Shown here one piece after another: positions 11,535 through 52,996 of a stretch of DNA of 64,000 nucleotides (position 1 is its first letter; the number at the start of each line of letters is the position of its first letter). Location: the NCBI GenBank assembly GCA_025786725.1, contig JAHLTZ010000042.1, positions 110,050 to 174,049 on the forward strand, in the 5' to 3' direction. Source of the DNA: Syncephalis fuscata (taxonomy: Eukaryota > Zoopagomycota > Zoopagomycetes > Zoopagales > Piptocephalidaceae). The notes under the pieces are model-generated. The model worked only from the letters and a program-made list of their open reading frames with translations, was not told where the DNA came from and searched no databases. Made by a program: the position numbers and the translations under genes.

Positions 11535-12504
11535 ATGTATAATAGTAGCCGAGAGGGAGAGCTGAATGGCTATCAGTTTATTATGGAGGCATATGGTGAT
11601 AATACTGTTTTTCGGCGACGTTATATAGCTGTCCATTTACAGCTATTTCTTGTTTGATTATGATTTTATGTTTTGTGCGTAATGCATATCGGGCTATTTG
11701 TGCGATGTGTAAAAATCCGCGTAAAATAGCGCCATGGTGCTGTATTACAATGACAGTTGGTGGAATACTCTCGTTCTCCAATCCCCTGGCTTTCCAGACA
11801 CCATAGGCCTTCATGCTCTTCAGGAGTACTTCAAATTCTCGTTGGCATGACACTATATACAATGGCCACAAACTGTATACTGTTTGAGCGAGCCTATCTT
11901 GCGCAACAGAAAAGCCGGTGGATACTGGCAGCTGGTGTACTTGCAGTTGCAATTCCTGGGCCAGCATACGCAGTCGCCATATGGTATTTGGCCACGCCAA
12001 CTATATCAGAATTTATTGGATGCCACACGACAAAACATTACATGCTTCCTTATATTCGGATCATGCTCGACCTTCCAGCCCATATTATTTTTTCTGTAGT
12101 GTTTTTCCTAGTATTATACAAACGATATAAAACATACCGTGAAGGTTGCTGGAAACACTTAGCGCGTGATGGCGTTATTACTATGCTATTGGTTATTGCA
12201 TCAAATATAATATGCTGCCTGGTAAACACAATTGCCATTGCCAAAGATGTTGGAGATATGTTTTATATTATGGACTGGTAAGCAACGATTATATTGGCAT
12301 AGCAGTGTTTACTAACTATCGTGCAGGTTGGTTGCATCTACGTTACTTGTCGAATACCAGTATAAAATAAGTTCTTCTGCTTATATAAAAAAGACAAGCG
12401 CAAATAACATCGGATTTACACCAGTAGAATTTGCCAATTCTGTGGAAGGCATAACACGAACAAAATTTACTCATCTTTGGTCAGAATTCACTATTAGAAA
12501 ATAG
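11535..12504 (+). pseudogene. Tandem 7TM receptor-like gene, copy 1 (frameshifted)
   Basis: First of four paralogues. The frame opens as MYNSSREGELNGYQFIMEAY at 11535 and reads RRRYIAVHLQLFLV, then breaks at the T run 11653-11655 (one more T would restore IMILCFVRNAYRAI). A second break lies near 11801-11808, next to PSCSSGVLQILVG. From there to the intron the frame is open (TNCILFERAYLAQQKSRW, LPYIRIMLDLPAHIIFSVVF). The final intron 12278-12326 has a perfect TACTAAC branch; exon 2 is 12327-12504 (LVASTLLVEYQYKISSSAY). The second lesion is not a simple homopolymer deficit, so copy 1 is probably a real pseudogene, but sequence error cannot be excluded. Confidence 0.7.
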
Positions 12505-13155
12505 TACAATCTATAAATATGAGACATGTACTGTAGAGTATTGCAGTCGACAATAATACAACTGCAATTCATATTGGTATAACTTATTTATTCACATTTT
12601 ATTTCGTTTATTAAATACCAATACGCATCAAATGACATTTAATAATACAGTTGATTTATAATTCTGTCAAGCTAAAAAATTATTTAAATTACAACTATAG
12701 CTATGACGCTATTCTGCTATTGAAAACAATGCATTGGTTTAATAAATATAAACTGTTTAGAACTAATATATCAGTGTTGAACAGTATTTGCTATTTATTT
12801 ATTCATAGTTTTACTAACAATTAGATAAATCAAGCCAGTCGATTAAATACGCAATGATTATAGTCATTTAAAGTAGAGTATGGTGGTGTGTGTGAAAGAC
12901 ATTTACAATAGTCAGCCGTTTTAGCATTAGTACAGTACAATTCTATGGAGCGCTCATGCTTTTGATTAGCCCCATAATAAATACATCCGTACCAAAACTG
13001 GTTTATGCACAAGCATGCAAAGGAGTATGGTGAATTAAACACTGAGAATCACACGGTACGAAAAAGTCAACACTTATCATTGCGTTCTTTTTAATTCTGA
13101 TACCATTCTTAATTACTTAATATTTTTGCAAGCGTGTGTTTTAATATATATAACC
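12505..13155. other. Intergenic spacer, 7TM array
   Basis: About 650 bp of AT-rich DNA between copies 1 and 2. No coding signal was seen. Confidence 0.45.
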
Positions 13156-14130
13156 ATGAGATATAAAAGTCACACAGGAGAGTTGAATGGATATCAGTTT
13201 ATTATGGAAGCATACCATGACAAAGCTCTTTTTCAACGACGCTTTGTAGCTGTTAACTTTCAAGTATTTCTTATTATCACAGTAGCATTATTGTTTATAC
13301 GCAATTTTTATCGAGCTATTTGCGCATTAATGATGCATCCATACAGAATTGCATCATGGTGCTGTATTGTAATGACATTTGTTGGTGTATTAACGTTTAT
13401 AACTCCAATGCTATTCGAATCGTCATTTGGCCCAACGTGTTCGACATCTGTAATACAAATCGCAATTGGTCTTACGATATCCACGATAGCCACAAACATC
13501 ATATTGTTTGAGCGGGCCTATCTTGCACATCAGCGTAATCGATGGCTACTGGTTATTGGTCTAGTTGCAATTGTAGTGCCTCCTCCATTATATGTAGTTT
13601 CCATGTGGTTTTTAGCTATACCATATATATCAGACTATGTTGGCTGCTATACGCAAAATGATTATTGGCTTCCATACATCCGACTTACTATTGATTTACC
13701 ACCAAATATTATTTTTTCTGTAGTATTTTTACTAGTGGTTTATCGACGATATACTACATATCACGAAGGATGCTGGAGAGAGCTGGCACGTGATGGAATT
13801 ATTACTATGTTGTTGGTTGTTTTTTCCAACATGGTATGCTTTATCTTCAACATATCAAATATTTTAAAGGAATTTGGTAATATGCTTTATGTCACGGATT
13901 GGTAGGTTAAAAACATAACACTGGCGTATCATTGACTTACATAAACTATAAGGTTGATTACATCCACGCTGCTCGTAGAGAATCAATACCGAATTAGCAC
14001 TTCTGCTCATACAAAAAAGGCTGAGAAAAGCAGTGTAAGATTTACTACACGGGGATATGCCAACTCTATAGAAAGCGGGATGCAAACTGAGATTAGCCAT
14101 TTTCCATCACAACTCATAACCAAAGGATGA
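13156..14130 (+). CDS. Tandem 7TM receptor-like gene, copy 2 (intact)
   Basis: Intact member of the array, about 308 residues. Exons 13156-13901 and 13953-14130; the single intron splits the Trp codon after the conserved YVTD. Seven hydrophobic segments: FQVFLIITVALLFIRNFYRA; SWCCIVMTFVGVLTFITPML; VIQIAIGLTISTIATNIILF; LLVIGLVAIVVPPPLYVVSM; NIIFSVVFLLVVYRRY; GIITMLLVVFSNMVCFIFNI; and a last one spanning the intron. A Cys before TM3 (GPTCSTS) and a Cys in the loop after TM4 (YVGCYTQND) are placed like the conserved rhodopsin-class disulphide pair. ILFERAYLAHQR sits at the inner end of TM3, where GPCRs carry E/DRY. The family is unknown to me; receptor function is inferred from topology and these motifs. 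Confidence 0.78.
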
Positions 14131-14595
14131 TTTGATACAGAAATTTATGCAAACTATATAATCTAGGTCGTTTTTATTATCCATAGCACTATTATATAGC
14201 GTGTAACTATTAGCAACTGATTAGTATTGTCTATCCATCCGACGTACGTATGTGACTCTAATTAAGTAAACAAAACAAAGCCTATTGATTTTTCATGCTA
14301 TTGAAATAATACAATGTACCTGATATTAGTTATCATATAGAATAGAATTCCTCCTACAATAATATATTGCTGATCGCTTTTAGCCTTGTGTGCAATTGGT
14401 ATTACTGGTTTATTTCGGGTTTTGGTTAGGTTATGCAAGACGGGATATAGATAACCTGTTTGCACACCATCGTGCAGCTTTTTGTGTCTTAAAGCGACTG
14501 AAACAAACGAACTACCATTGCTCCCTTCCTCTTAATTTTTCGGTTTTTTTAATAGCTTTTGTTTATATAGTCCCTTATACACTTATCTTGTAAAA
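14131..14595. promoter_or_regulatory. Spacer and probable promoter of 7TM copy 3
   Basis: 465 bp. From about 14450 to 14595 it is recognisably similar to the region upstream of copy 4 (16405-16544). Both contain GATAACCTGTTTGCACACCATC, TGCAGCTTT and CTTGTAAAAATGCG running into the start codon. Conservation upstream of paralogues suggests a duplicated promoter and 5' UTR. Confidence 0.5.
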
Positions 14596-15573
14596 ATGCG
14601 AAATATAACACCCAAGGGGCAATTAAATGGATATCAGTTTATTATGGAGGCGTACCATGACAAAGCTCTTTTTCGGAAACGCTTTATGGCCATTCATTTC
14701 CAGTTATTTCTTGTTGCCATAATGGTATTGCTATCTATACGCAACTCTTATCGAGCTATTCGCGCTCTGATTATATATCCGCACAGAATTGCATCGTGGT
14801 GCTGTATTGTAATGACATTCACTGGCGTGGCGTCGCTTATAACCCCAATGTTTTTCGAATCGCCATTTGGCCCAGAATGTTCAACAGCCGCATTGCAAAT
14901 CATAGTTGGTCTTGCAATATCCACAGCAGCCACAAACATCATATTGTTTGAGCGGGCCTATCTTGCACATCAGCGTAATCGATGGTTGCTGATTATTGGT
15001 CTAATTTCAATTGCGTTGCCTGGCCCAATATATATAACTGCTATGTGGTTTTTATCTACTCCGCATATATCAGACTATGTTGGCTGCTATACACAAAATG
15101 ATTATTGGATTCCATACATCCGACTTACTATTGATTTACCGTCAAATATTATTTTTTCCATAGCGTTTTTCTTGGTGGTTTATCGACGATATACTACATA
15201 TCATGAAGGAGTATGGAAAGAGTTGGGACGCGATGGAATTATTACTATGTTGTTGGTTATTTTTTCCAACATGGTATGCTTCATCTTCAACATATCAAAT
15301 ATTTTTAAAGAGTTCGGTCCTATGCTTTATATCGCTGACTGGTAGGTTAAAAACATAACACTGGCGTATCATTGACTTACATAAACTATAAGGTTGATTA
15401 CATCCACGCTGCTCGTAGAGAATCAATACCGAATTAGCACTTCTACTCATACAAAAAAGGCTGAGAAAAGCAGTGTAAGATTTACTACACGGGGATATGT
15501 CAACTCTATAGAAAGCGGGATGCAAACTGAAATTAGTCATTTTCCATCACAACTCATAACCAAGATGATTTAA
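14596..15573 (+). CDS. Tandem 7TM receptor-like gene, copy 3 (intact)
   Basis: Closest paralogue of copy 2. Exons 14596-15341 and 15393-15573. Same seven segments, the GPECSTA and YVGCYTQND cysteines, and the ILFERAYLAHQRNRW motif. N-terminus MRNITPKGQLNGYQFIMEAY. The exon-1 proteins differ at many positions, mainly in TM1-TM3. The intron, exon 2 and 3' flank are almost base-for-base identical to copy 2, ending ITKMI where copy 2 ends ITKG because of a small indel at the stop. This points to recent local gene conversion or duplication of the 3' end. Confidence 0.78.
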
Positions 15574-16544
15574 TACAGAGATTTATGCAAACTATATAAT
15601 CTAGGTCGTTTTTTATTACCGATGACATTGGTGAATACCGCTGCTCCATTAATACCTGGTTGTTGTTGTTATTACATTTTATATTCACCTATCTAATTTT
15701 ACTACAGAGGCAGCTAATATTTATTATATTCTAATAGTGTAGCTACTGCACAGTTGCCATAAATTTAATAAACATTTTTATAATTGAAAAGCACGTATCA
15801 CAGAACAAGAAACACTGTTTAAATTAGCGGTGCATACAGGTATTGGAGTTCACACGGTATAGCTAAATGAATTCTATTAATGCACATGCATTTGATATGC
15901 ATACGTGATATTAATTAAATAAACAAAATAAAGCTTGCTAGTTTCACCATGCTATTAAAATACTATGGCGTAGTTATTAATGTATTGCTAGGCGCTTTTG
16001 ACCTTGTGTAAAGTTGTAGCCTTTGATATACTAATCTCGATCTTACATCACAAATATGCCCAAAGTGCAATAGTAGAATATTAAAAAAAAACAGACTATT
16101 CAGATGCAATAATCCATACAGTACATAAATGCAACAACAAATGCGAAATGACATGAATCGCAATCATATGGCTTCTATTGATATTCGATCAATTTTCTAC
16201 ACATGATCAACAACAACAATGATCAGCATTAAATGCTTTAACGAAATCAAATGATATGTTACATTGTTTATTTAAATCAACTTATTAACAACATTTTAAT
16301 AGAAAGCAATATAATTATGTTGTGCATAACAACGACATGACTTCAATTGGAACAAATTTTGCCTTAAGGATTCAAAATAGAAGAGTCAAAGTATAGTTCA
16401 ACCGGATAACCTGTTTGCACACCATCATGCAGCTTTCTGTATCCTGGAACGACTGAAAAAACAAACGGACAAACTTCTATTGCTTCCTTTTCTTGAGTTT
16501 TCGGCTTTCCTTTATACGGTCCGCCGTCTACTTTTCTTGTAAAA
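15574..16544. other. Spacer, 7TM array
   Basis: About 970 bp. The final 140 bp (from about 16405) is the duplicated promoter/5' UTR described for copy 3. The remainder is AT-rich with no supported gene. Confidence 0.45.
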
Positions 16545-17413
16545 ATGCGAAATACAACGCACAAAGGCCAATTAAATGGGTATTAGTTTATCATGGAAGC
16601 ATACCATGACAAAGCTCTTTTCGGCGGCGTATTGTAACGGTGTATTTTCAAATAGTTCTTATTATAGTTGTGGTGTCATGGTTTGCACGTAACGCTTACC
16701 GGTCTTTTCGTGCAATGTTAAGAAATCCACGGAAGATAGGACCGTGGTGTTGTATTATCATAGCTTCTTCTGGTGTATTGGCGTTTATCGCACCTATAAC
16801 CTTTGGAGTAACAACTGTTCCTTCATGTTCTACAGGATTACAGCATGCGCTTGCCGGCCTAACAATATCTACCATGGCCATCAATGTTATACTGTTTGAG
16901 CGAGCCTACCTTGCACATCAGCGCAGCCCATGGGTGCTAATTGCTGGTATAATTGCAGTTGCAATACCAGGACCGGCATATGCATTTGCCATATGGTATC
17001 TAGTTGTACCGAACATATCCGATTCCATCGGCTGCTATAGTATGAATCGACCGCTAATTCCTCACATCCGATTTGGACTTGATTTACCGTCAAATGTTGT
17101 TTTTTCAGCGGCGTTTTGTATAGTAGTGTATCGGCGGTATACAAAATATCACGAAGCTTGCTGGAAATATCTGGCGCATGATGGAATTATCGCCATGCTA
17201 CTGGTCATTGTATCAAATACATTATGCTGTGTACTCAATTTAATTAGTGTCGTCGAGGAGTTTGGTGACATGGTTTATCTTGTAGACTGGTAAGCTACAA
17301 ATATAACATTAATAGGCCTTTTGCTAACATGTCTTAAAAGGTTGATTACAGGCACTTTACTTGTAGAGTATCAGTGTAAAATAAGTTTTTTGCTTATTCT
17401 ATTATTGAAATAA
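16545..17413 (+). pseudogene. Tandem 7TM receptor-like gene, copy 4 (nonsense, frameshift, altered C-terminus)
   Basis: Start MRNTTHKGQLNGY at 16545, then TAG at 16584-16586 where the paralogues have a CAG Gln (GYQF). A one-base deficit in the T run 16618-16621 breaks ALFRRR. From 16640 the frame is open through TM1-TM7, with ILFERAYLAHQRSPW and SIGCYSMN conserved. The intron at 17290-17340 is retained (WLITGTLLVEYQCKIS), but the tail then runs into FLLILLLK and a stop instead of the conserved cytosolic tail. The nonsense codon plus the degenerate tail favour a true pseudogene, although the T-run error could be a sequencing artefact. Internal methionines could in principle still give a shorter product. 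Confidence 0.72.
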
Positions 17414-49348: not shown

Positions 49349-50041
49349 TTTTGTTTAATTAATCGTAATAAGAACAGCAAAGAAATAGCTACAAGGACAA
49401 CAAAAGAGAAAAGAATAAGCGTGAGTCAGAATTATGTTGTGCTTCACAGTAGTTGCTTTATAAGATATGGTGGTACTAGTTTATTGTCACACCTCCAGTA
49501 CGAATAGGAAAATAGAATGAAATAGTATTGTGCACCATTTACACTATGTAAAGTATTTAGAAACAATTATATCACAGCGCAGCAACGAGAATCAGTTCCA
49601 ATGTTGGATTATTATAATTGGTTATTTCTGTTTAATGTTTATTAAGGCTTTTAATATACTAGATATAATACAATAACTCTAATGAAAGTATTGCTCTGAG
49701 CAATTAAAATATGATTTCAACATTATACGGATAAAATAAGTAAATAGGCATGATAGATATGCGGTATAAACAGTATTAGTAAAGTCGATATTGAATACAA
49801 TTCGTTATTCTTAAATAGAAACATGTTTATTGTGATAGGCTTGTATAGTTAGGCCCAACTAAATCCAGACCTGCTGGTAATGTAGTAATGTCATTAATTA
49901 GAATCTAAATAAATCAAATGTTGAGTGTGGTTTGATATGTGAATGATCTGAACGGCTGTTGTCAGGTAATCTTGCTTCTATATGGTATATATGTCTAATG
50001 TATACTGGACAAGCCGTCTAATTGGTCTATTCATTTTATCT
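49349..50041. other. Intergenic, 3' flank of the micro-exon gene
   Basis: About 690 bp, AT-rich. Lies between the F-box gene start and the last exon of the micro-exon peptide gene, so it holds the promoter of the former and the 3' UTR of the latter. No other signal was seen. Confidence 0.45.
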
Positions 50042-51089
50042 TTATACTCTATCACCCACTATATATTTATAAATAAATATATGACATCTTATTAATACAT
50101 AGCCAGGTAATATACAGTGTTACTTACTTCCTAAAATAATATAGCCATTAAATATACATAGTGAATTACATTTAATTAGTATATAGTTATTTGACATGCA
50201 ATGCCACTTACTCCCTATTGATATCAGTATCAAATAAACGATGCATGTCGATTATATAATTAGTACAGGCTAATTAATATACAGTACACTTACACACTAT
50301 TAATATTAAATAAAAAATATTCATATCATATGGTTAGCGTGTGATTAAACAATATATAATACCACTTACTAGCTATTGATATTGTTAATACGTGTAAAAA
50401 TAGTATATATTTAGTAAATAAATCATTTTTATACAATATCACTTACGAGCTATTGCCATTAAATGAATGATATATATTGTATATTATATGGTTAGCTTAT
50501 AACTAATTGGAGTACAATACCACTTACGATCTATTTATATTGTTAAACAAGCATAGTACATGGTGTGTTAGTGTGTAGCCAGTTGGAAAACAGTGTCACT
50601 TACGATCTATTTATATTGTTAAACATATACGGTAGATAGTGTATGATTAATGAATATTCGGTTGATGTGCAGCTTTACTTACAGACTATTAATATTATTA
50701 AAACACACAGTACATGGTATACAATTAGGACATAAATGATTGATATATAATTTACTTACAAGCTATCAATATAGACAAACATGTACGGCAAATAATATAT
50801 AATTAGTGCATAGCCGATTGGTATGTAATGTCACTTACGTTTCACTAACATTATTAAATGTACACAATATATGGTGTGCGATTAGTAAGTGGATTATTGA
50901 TATATAGTTTACTTACTGTTAATTGACGGAGCTGGTTTATTCATTTAAATTAGTAAGTACAGTAATATTACATATTCACTATAATTTCTTCATACCTTGA
51001 ATTTCTTGAACTGGTCTAGCATCTATCGTAATGATATTGGCAGCAAAGGCAACGATAACGGTGCAGACGACGGCTATAGAAAGCTTCAT
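50042..51089 (-). CDS. Micro-exon gene encoding a small secreted peptide
   Basis: Exon 1 (51089-50996) encodes MKLSIAVVCTVIVAFAAN..IDA, a clean signal peptide with likely cleavage after Ala24, then RPVQEIQ. Eleven very short exons follow, each bounded by AG and GTAAGT: 50931-50917 (15 nt), 50844-50839 (6 nt), and 3-nt exons at 50762, 50685, 50606, 50530, 50449, 50372, 50296, 50214 and 50130 (5' base of each), then a last exon 50058-50042 with the stop. All introns are phase 1. Joined in order there is no stop, and the exons add APSIN, then MKPFYHPPMWR, then MGDRV: a precursor of about 52 residues, mature peptide about 28. The introns (64-81 nt) each carry a CTAAY- or TTAAT-type branch site and are tandem copies of one another. 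Every internal exon is a multiple of 3, so skipping preserves frame. The last exon boundary is the least certain. Confidence 0.72.
50128..50931 (-). repeat. Tandem array of intron/micro-exon units (period about 78 bp)
   Basis: Ten to eleven copies of a unit that reads, on the minus strand, GTAAGT(G/A)..ATTGTA.., a central CTAAT/CTAAC, then TTTAA.AATAT.AATAG followed by three exon bases and the next GTAAGT. On the plus strand it appears as ACTTAC-NNN-CTATT. Spacings between successive donors are 76-84 bp. The three exon bases differ from unit to unit (CTT, TCT, ATC, ATC, CTC, CTA, TGT, GGA, GAA), whereas the splice signals are fixed. A degenerate final unit (ATCAC-CCA-CTATA, 50051-50063) marks the end. 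Confidence 0.85.
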
Positions 51090-51637: not shown

Positions 51638-52996
51638 TTAATATTCTTCATCGGGCTCTCCTCCGACACCTTCGAAGGCATCGTTATCTTTGCCTACTTC
51701 TTCGTAGTCTCGCTCGAGAGCGGCTAGATTCTCACGTGCTTCGCTAAACTCGCCTTCCTCCATACCTTCACCGACATACCAGTGAACAAAGGCGCGTTTC
51801 GAGTACATTAGATCAAAGTTGTGATCAAGACGTGACCAAGCCGCACTGATGGCCGTTGTATTCGACAACATACACACGGCACGTGGTACATCGGCCATAT
51901 CGCTACCTCGCACCATCGTTGGCTTTTGTTCATTAATACCAACTTTAAAGCCAGTTGGGCACCAGTCGACGAACTGAACCGTTGAAAGCTGCTTAATCTT
52001 GTCGATGGCATTGCTCACATCCTTCGTAGTAACGTCACCACGGTACAAAAGACAGCAAGACATATATTTGCCAGACTGCGGATCGGTAACGACCATTTGA
52101 CTGCCATTTTCGAAACACTCGTTGGTAATTTCTTGCACGGTGAATTGTCGATGATTTACATGACTTGCCGATATAATCGGTGCATAAGCGACCAATGGGA
52201 AATGAATACGGGGGAAAGGCACAAGGTTCGTTTGGAACTCGTTAAGATCAACATTAAGCGAGCCGCTAAACCGTAGTGATGCCGTAATGGAGGAAACCAC
52301 CTGGGCAATCAGACAATTAAGATTCTTGTACTGTGGCAAATCGATTCCAAGGCGGCGTTTACAAATATTGTAGATGGCTTGGTTGTCGACCATAAATGTA
52401 CAGTCCGAGTGCTCAAGTGTTGTATGGGTCGTAAGAATTGAATTATACGGCTCAACAACAGCAGTCGACATTTCCGGAGCTGGATAGACGGCAAATTCAA
52501 ACTTGCACTTTTTGCCGTAATCCATACTAAGCCGCTCCATTAGTAAAGCGCCTAGACCAGAGCCGGTACCACCGCCAAACGAGTGAAACATGAAAAAGCC
52601 TTGAAGACCGTCGCAGTTATCGGCAAGTTTACGGAGACGGTCGTTAACGGCACCGGAAAGCTCTTTGCCAATTGTGTAGTGCCCACGGGCGTAGTTGTTT
52701 GCCGCATCTTCCTTGCCGGAAATTAACTGTTCGGGATGGAATAGTTGGCGGTATTCGCCCGTACGGATTTCATCAATGACGGCCGGTTCCAAGTCTACAA
52801 AGATTGAACGAGGCACGTATTTGCCAGAGCCAGACTCTGAAAAAAACGTATCGAACGAGTTATCCGTGCCTGACTTGAGTCCGTCCGTAGCCTGGCCATC
52901 GGGACTGATATTGTGCTCCTGGCAGTATAACTCCCAGCAAGCATTACCAATTTGTATACCGGCTTGACCGACATGGATTGAAATACATTCACGCAT
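51638..52996 (-). CDS. Alpha-tubulin
   Basis: 452-residue alpha subunit of the microtubule heterodimer, in one uninterrupted exon. [20 protein letters not shown] start, tubulin signature GGGTGSG within [16 protein letters not shown], catalytic Glu of the alpha chain in [24 protein letters not shown], and the acidic C-terminal tail [10 protein letters not shown] ending in the detyrosinatable Tyr. The luminal loop around the acetylation site is one residue shorter than in animals ([20 protein letters not shown]); its only Lys is position 41, near the canonical Lys40. Intronless while nearly all neighbours carry many introns, with more GC-rich third positions, consistent with high expression. 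Confidence 0.98.

Follow-up and report, generated by a model that had tools for sequence, protein, structure and literature searches.

Arrays of single-codon micro-exons as the probable basis of a secreted-peptide gene family in Syncephalis fuscata

The micro-exon gene on the minus strand of the window (the whole stretch of 64,000 nucleotides of Syncephalis fuscata DNA analysed here) appears to belong to a family of about 160 genes, in which the mature secreted peptide would be assembled from single-codon exons spliced in phase 1 and would probably serve as a host-directed arsenal. Judging from the sequence, we give this reading a probability of about 0.87. In the proposed mechanism, the mature peptide would be encoded almost wholly by 3-nt exons lying in cassettes of about 81 nt (an intron and one codon), every short intron would be removed by the spliceosome, and the micro-exons would be joined in phase 1. 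Each intron would be self-sufficient, because the GTAAGT donors and TAG acceptors are near-invariant. The predicted product begins with a conserved signal peptide; this is usually followed by a dibasic motif, which we take to be the processing site of a KEX2-type protease, and then comes a short, hypervariable, often cysteine-rich mature peptide. We regard the micro-exons as coding on four lines of evidence, namely exon length, reading frame, intronless paralogs, and splice-site compensation.

If this reading is right, nearly every codon would have its own intron, which would make these the most extreme split genes known to us and offer a natural way to test minimal exon size and short-intron recognition. 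The introns would act as frame-safe spacers for the codon-level evolution of secreted peptides, and peptide diversification would be genome-encoded and spliceosome-dependent, single amino acids being quickly gained, lost, or changed. In addition, a large family of secreted peptides in a mycoparasite would seemingly have been missed by annotation.

The micro-exon gene of the window

The window gene, read from 51089 to 50042, comprises a signal-peptide exon, exons of 15 and 6 nt, nine exons of 3 nt, and a terminal exon (Table 1). This layout was proposed in a preliminary description, and we entered its exons by hand. The joined exons measure 159 nt and encode 52 amino acids with no internal stop and a final TAA, the product being MKLSIAVVCTVIVAFAANIITIDARPVQEIQAPSINMKPFYHPPMWRMGDRV; the layout and the open joined reading were thus confirmed. 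All 12 introns (64–81 nt) keep GT and AG and are in phase 1, as had been described, but the branch sites said to be recognisable in them carry little weight: a yTrAy word occurs at least once in each intron, and such words are common in this sequence. The framing of every exon by AG...GTAAGT holds for 11 of the 12 donors, the exception being GTATGA of intron 1. In the window, AG-NNN-GTAAGT is found nine times on the minus strand, always in this array, and four times on the plus strand, scattered. The acceptor of the terminal exon, TTTATAAATATATAG, looks by eye like the acceptors before the terminal exon in several genes of the family (TTTATAAATACAG or variants of it).

Table 1. Predicted exons and neighbouring features of the window gene, with positions in the window
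Feature	Position	Strand	Basis
Exon 1, 94 nt: signal peptide MKLSIAVVCTVIVAFAANIITIDA and RPVQEIQ; leaves phase 1	50996..51089	-	shares homology with signal-peptide exons at other loci, such as MKLSIAVVCTIVVALVASTAMVDAKPALVRR
Intron 1, 64 nt: weak donor GTATGA, acceptor CAG	50932..50995	-	sequence
Exon 2, 15 nt: APSIN	50917..50931	-	sequence
Exon 3, 6 nt: TGAAAC	50839..50844	-	sequence
Micro-exon 4: CTT, in the context TAG-CTT-GTAAGT	50760..50762	-	sequence
Micro-exon 5: TCT	50683..50685	-	sequence
Micro-exon 6: ATC	50604..50606	-	sequence
Micro-exon 7: ATC	50528..50530	-	sequence
Micro-exon 8: CTC	50447..50449	-	sequence
Micro-exon 9: CTA	50370..50372	-	sequence
Micro-exon 10: TGT	50294..50296	-	sequence
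Micro-exon 11: GGA; its skipping alone gives a T|GA join, a TGA stop	50212..50214	-	sequence
Micro-exon 12: GAA	50128..50130	-	sequence
Terminal exon, coding part TGGGTGATAGAGTATAA: M-G-D-R-V-stop	50042..50058	-	sequence
Possible remnant of the conserved 3' sequence of the family, GTCCAGTATACATTAGACATATATACCATA; limits approximate	49975..50015	-	weak resemblance to the conserved tail, by eye

The lack of stops over the joins had been offered as a sign of coding. For the window gene such an open reading over 12 joins has a chance of about one half (a stop at about 5% of joins, from 38.3 of 741 in the shuffles described below), and the gene alone is weak evidence for coding micro-exons; the proof lies in the family. 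Gene finding trained on the family did not rediscover the model: it returned no chain, and with looser thresholds a different model.

Compared with the family, the window gene keeps the signal peptide and has RPVQEIQ in place of the PALVRR dibasic site. No cysteine follows its signal peptide, the six-cysteine framework is absent from its mature part, and the conserved family promoter was not found upstream. The gene appears as a diverged, cysteine-free member of the family, whose role may have changed or been lost. The weak first donor, several weak-scoring splice sites, the promoter unlike that of the family, the cysteine-free mature part, and the diverged terminal region would also suit a decaying copy that makes no useful peptide within an otherwise real family. 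We hold such decay to be doubtful, as all 12 joins are open, GT and AG are intact in 12 of 12 introns, and other cysteine-free members exist (e.g. L009).

Two other features of the window were observed. An intronless alpha-tubulin-like gene (51638–52996) adjoins the micro-exon gene; its listed relatives, at least 120, all have at most 77% identity to it, the gene itself excepted. Four related tandem open frames at 11757–17293 look like multi-helix membrane proteins, and the one that was scanned gave no Pfam match. Neither Rfam nor ARAGORN gave a match within the window.

The gene family and the case for coding micro-exons

At the DNA level, a search of the genome that holds the window (28.95 Mb, 299 contigs) returned 187 related matches. 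Consecutive micro-exon pairs, defined as TAG-NNN-GTAAGT followed 58–84 bases on by TAG-NNN-GTAAG, number 2744 genome-wide, and the reversed-pattern control gave 0. By tblastn, the exon for MKLSIAVVCTIVVALVASTAMVDAKPALVRR or a variant, or a part of it, lies upstream of an array in 36 of 39 regions (all except L012, L013, and L025). Our sample consisted of 39 fetched regions, of which two adjoining ones were merged and to which the window was added, giving 39 records. These contain 675 of the 2744 pairs; if the remainder is alike, this share scales to about 160 micro-exon genes, our estimate for the S. fuscata family. A protein search with one annotated member gave at least 150 places; among these best 150 of 313 candidates, the open frame has at most 43 amino acids in 77 and at least 64 in 64. 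Short frames are expected where the first exon runs on into intron 1.

The architecture of the arrays is uniform in exon length. Among the raw units of the fetched loci, the exon between AG and GTAAGT is exactly 3 nt in 716 of 786; an AG within the triplet probably explains some of the units scored as 0 or 1 nt. The introns before 3-nt exons measure 73–82 nt in 695 of 716 cases, most unit lengths being about 76–85 nt. In the 32 fitted models with at least 12 introns, internal exons have 3 nt in 868 of 924 and 6 nt in 34 (902 of 924 together), the donor is GTAAGT in 788 of 956, and 21 introns measure 354–617 nt, several of them at loci that carry an insertion of about 0.4 kb. The frame-aware models were fitted to stay open and include a few odd exons of 0, 1, 2, 4, 7, or 19 nt; the conserved terminal motif ends only 11 of 34 of them. 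The model of L018 has 50 introns, 49 internal exons, all of 3 nt, and a coding region of 240 nt, its full frame being that of the fitted model only. L016 (36 introns) and both genes of L011 (43 each) are open to the end already in frame-blind chains; a 53-intron model of L043 is less secure. At L063, inspection by eye shows a signal exon of this kind, and the pattern finds 13 triplet units. Many members have cysteine-rich mature parts; L009 and the window gene are cysteine-free.

It is in the family that the argument from open joins holds. Over 741 joins in 126 unique runs, reading in phase 1 meets 3 stops, in phase 0 it meets 9 and in phase 2 it meets 67, and 2000 shuffles of the exons within runs gave 38.3±4.7 phase-1 stops with a minimum of 23. 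The three phase-1 stops fall in loci that look damaged, namely L021, which has lost its ATG start codon, and the near-duplicates L028 and L037, which share a stop. When only 28 representative loci are counted, 1 stop is found in 608 phase-1 joins versus 30.1±4.0 in shuffles (minimum 16). Moreover, the phase-1 joins contain 119 cysteine codons versus 65.5±5.7 in shuffles.

Further evidence comes from the splice sites. Pairing with U1 predicts that a G at exon position -1 should compensate for a weak donor. Such a G precedes 61 of 118 non-GTAAGT donors versus 158 of 750 GTAAGT donors, and in 22 representative models the corresponding counts are 44 of 89 and 119 of 574 (p 4.5e-8). Donors with GC have it in 15 of 20 cases (13 of 14 among the representatives). 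This compensation speaks for real donors, since a decoy would not need it.

The third source of evidence is a set of intronless paralogs, which resemble the micro-exon genes in their first exon and 3' sequence but have no introns. In the 15 uninterrupted members that were read, a closely similar signal peptide is followed by a cysteine-rich mature part in one exon; the signal peptide of this type (as in P0121), MKLSIAVVCT...PALVRR, also occurs in the micro-exon family. Fourteen aligned members share six invariant mature cysteines in the framework C-x2-C-x3-C ... C ... C ... C. With a threshold of 10 bits, a profile built from 13 of the intronless members recognised 9 of the 22 mature peptides obtained by joining, as against 6 of 4400 shuffled versions and none of 44 readings in other frames; the other 13 of the 22 spliced peptides scored at most 10 bits. 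This comparison covered starts with a chain of at least 12 exons and an RR site, so that 17 of the 39 signal-peptide starts, the window gene included, were left out for a missing chain, fewer than 12 exons, or no RR site. The last acceptor of L010, L015, and L026 is immediately followed by AATAATCGATGG, the very stretch that in the intronless L057 directly follows the last cysteine codon; it is diverged in other micro-exon genes. As to the origin of the intronless copies, retroposition of spliced mRNA is not favoured, since the family promoter is present in four of the four intronless genes examined. Conversion mediated by cDNA and an ancestral intronless form remain as sources.

Existing annotation of the relatives neither shows nor excludes micro-exon joins. 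Among the seven covered here, of 12 in total, none that was mapped contains joined micro-exons. P0121, P0125, and P0129 correspond to uninterrupted genomic sequence, P0121 with a protein match of 100%, and P0124 is the one-exon frame of L058. By eye, P0123 and P0128 seem to run on into intron 1, and P0132 seems to be the P0129 sequence read in a shifted frame. The P0122 model passes over an ATA micro-exon and joins exon 1 to open sequence beyond it, in an apparent insertion; RNA support for this model would count against the joining of all exons there, at a disrupted locus.

These annotations, with P0122 joining exon 1 past a micro-exon, and the tandem repetition of the units would be in line with a non-coding 81-nt satellite derived from an intron; a single long intron would then separate exon 1 from a later exon, with the triplets as chance spacers. 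We consider this very improbable, and the phase test contradicts it. A satellite would explain neither the depletion of stops in one phase and the excess of cysteine, nor the match of spliced peptides to intronless paralogs that shuffles rarely attain, nor exons of exactly 3 nt while unit lengths vary, nor the -1 G compensation. Secreted peptides encoded by tandem single-codon exons, as first proposed for the window gene, are thus supported by the sequence evidence of the family.

Joining of the exons and turnover of the cassettes

The preliminary description further proposed that one locus makes a combinatorial peptide library, any subset of micro-exons being skipped in frame. Nearly all internal exons are indeed multiples of 3, so most skips are in frame; the window gene allows 66 skip joins, of which 63 stay open. 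The other three are stops, the skipping of GGA alone among them, and the claim for any subset was too strong. In the family, skip joins meet stops at the random rate, in 34 of 615 one-exon and 30 of 521 two-exon skips versus 3 of 741 true joins. Splice sites are near-optimal, as the fitted-model donors above illustrate, and suggest constitutive splicing; besides, skips would break the cysteine framework common to the intronless paralogs. Production of many isoforms per gene by skipping is therefore improbable. Since skip joins do not avoid stops, it is most likely that all exons are joined and that the diversity is held in the genome; occasional isoforms may arise from skipping.

Genomic diversity of this kind is seen when paralogs are compared. 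We counted differences in 17 overlapping paralog pairs, in columns with at least 75% local identity. Differing sites amount to 245 of 1122 in micro-exon triplets, 1832 of 27,944 in introns, 55 of 3908 in splice cores, 61 of 1514 in signal exons, and 26 of 495 in terminal exons. The triplets are thus about three times more divergent than the introns that surround them, and exceed them in 14 of the 17 pairs (the reverse is found in L024/L031, L029/L030, and L028/L037). The excess persists in 13 pairs for triplets flanked on both sides by introns that are at least 95% alike (15 of 318 versus 106 of 7080, p 2e-4) or 90–95% alike (16 of 120 versus 165 of 2653, p 0.007), and triplet differences are spread about equally over the three codon positions. 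Faster change of triplets than of introns, as the mechanism supposes, fits diversifying selection, although introns that are constrained, and perhaps homogenised, do not provide a clean neutral test.

Changes of whole cassettes are also visible. In the close pair L031 and L024, eight consecutive codon exons are absent from L031; L043 carries a tandem duplication of five cassettes, with introns 96–100% alike and five residues doubled; and other arrays have near-identical introns at other lags. Because the introns are homologous to each other, duplication, loss, and recombination of whole cassettes would change codons without breaking the frame. We find it on balance probable that the peptides are edited through these codon-cassette arrays, by one or a few residues each time and always in frame, as the roughly 160 genes undergo unequal exchange or gene conversion internally or with each other.

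Several features of the loci were noted alongside. Most micro-exon genes examined, and L064–L067, have a conserved promoter with TATAAATAGCCC or TTTAAATAGCCC and the palindrome-like GTATACTGCAGTATAC or a variant. Nearly identical duplicated arrays occur at C1:475k/531k, C2:225k/245k, and C57:418k/475k, some in opposite orientation, which suggests recent gene duplication or an effect of the assembly. An insertion of about 0.4 kb is common to L020, L021, L025, L027, L030, L034, L037, L044, L045, and L047, the array resuming beyond it. Seven aligned copies lie within array introns and have a tRNA-like end on the opposite strand and a likely target-site duplication; by eye, the element appears to be tRNA-derived and SINE-like. 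A shared stretch that ends several models is this same insertion inside array introns.

Role of the peptides and relation to known systems

Members of the genus Syncephalis, in the Zoopagales, are mycoparasites (PMC10386755, PMC6784888). The peptides of the family would form a rapidly diversifying secreted arsenal directed at the host fungus, and an effector- or toxin-like role against that host seems most likely. It is less likely, though conceivable, that they act inside the fungus, in self/non-self recognition, in mating, or as pheromones, or that they are general antimicrobials. Secreted peptides with dibasic processing can be pheromones, and the tandem open frames of the window look like multi-helix membrane proteins; their size, cysteine framework, and diversification compare better with what is known of toxin- and effector-like arsenals.

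The closest likeness in gene structure is to the micro-exon genes (MEGs) of schistosomes, of which 35 are described, with 10–20 short exons of 6–81 bp (3–81 bp in the abstract), mostly 15 bp, introns of 0.1–5 kb, and isoforms made by alternative splicing (PMC10526429). As in MEGs, the secretion signal is conserved, many tiny exons keep the frame, the secreted products vary, and the S. fuscata genes are those of a parasite. They differ in mutually homologous introns of about 78 nt, 3-nt exons, intronless paralogs, and occurrence in a fungus, and by the stop test they have no sign of selection for skipping. A signal exon and short exons in multiples of 3 are thus present, introns of 0.1–5 kb are not, and the proteins matched by a profile of 14 intronless members (12 at E <= 1) are all named Syncephalis fuscata. 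That the arrays are more extreme than schistosome MEGs, as the preliminary description held, is borne out by the preponderance of 3-nt exons and the 50 introns of L018. The layout thus departs from that of MEGs in lacking their long introns and, by the profile search, homology to them. Among the matches listed in the open-licence PMC literature, no report of such genes was seen in titles and abstract starts.

Among fungi, two papers describe microexons in Trichoderma Xlr2 and a one-nucleotide exon in Fusarium CYP621A (PMC11121469, PMC12940212). Like the latter, as there described, the S. fuscata micro-exons are backed by an intronless relative; unlike these single microexons in ordinary genes, they number tens per gene in a whole family. 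The family may also be set beside other systems of rapid change. Aphid bicycle genes are fast-evolving putative effectors recognised by a gene structure of many small exons, a likeness the S. fuscata family shares; we know of no single-codon cassette arrays among them. Mutually homologous introns also multiply through introner-like elements, which are near-identical introns spread over many unrelated genes, and through tandem duplication; these introns are added to existing exons, whereas in S. fuscata intron and codon would multiply together, in one phase and one family. To our knowledge, a unit of an intron and one codon repeated tens of times has no precedent.

The layout of the product recalls toxins of the cone-snail type, in which a conserved signal peptide and a processing site precede a hypervariable mature peptide with a cysteine framework; the S. 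fuscata peptides differ by their single-codon exons. Pfam gave no credible family for the 14 intronless proteins, and the profile found no credible relative among PDB sequences, the only match being a vicilin-like protein at E 1.3. For one intronless mature peptide, AlphaFold2 predicts a two-helix hairpin (helices 3–15 and 18–27, pLDDT 90.9, pTM 0.55). Foldseek of this model against PDB gave no match; the predicted hairpin may resemble the fold of plant alpha-hairpinins, a helical hairpin linked by disulfides.
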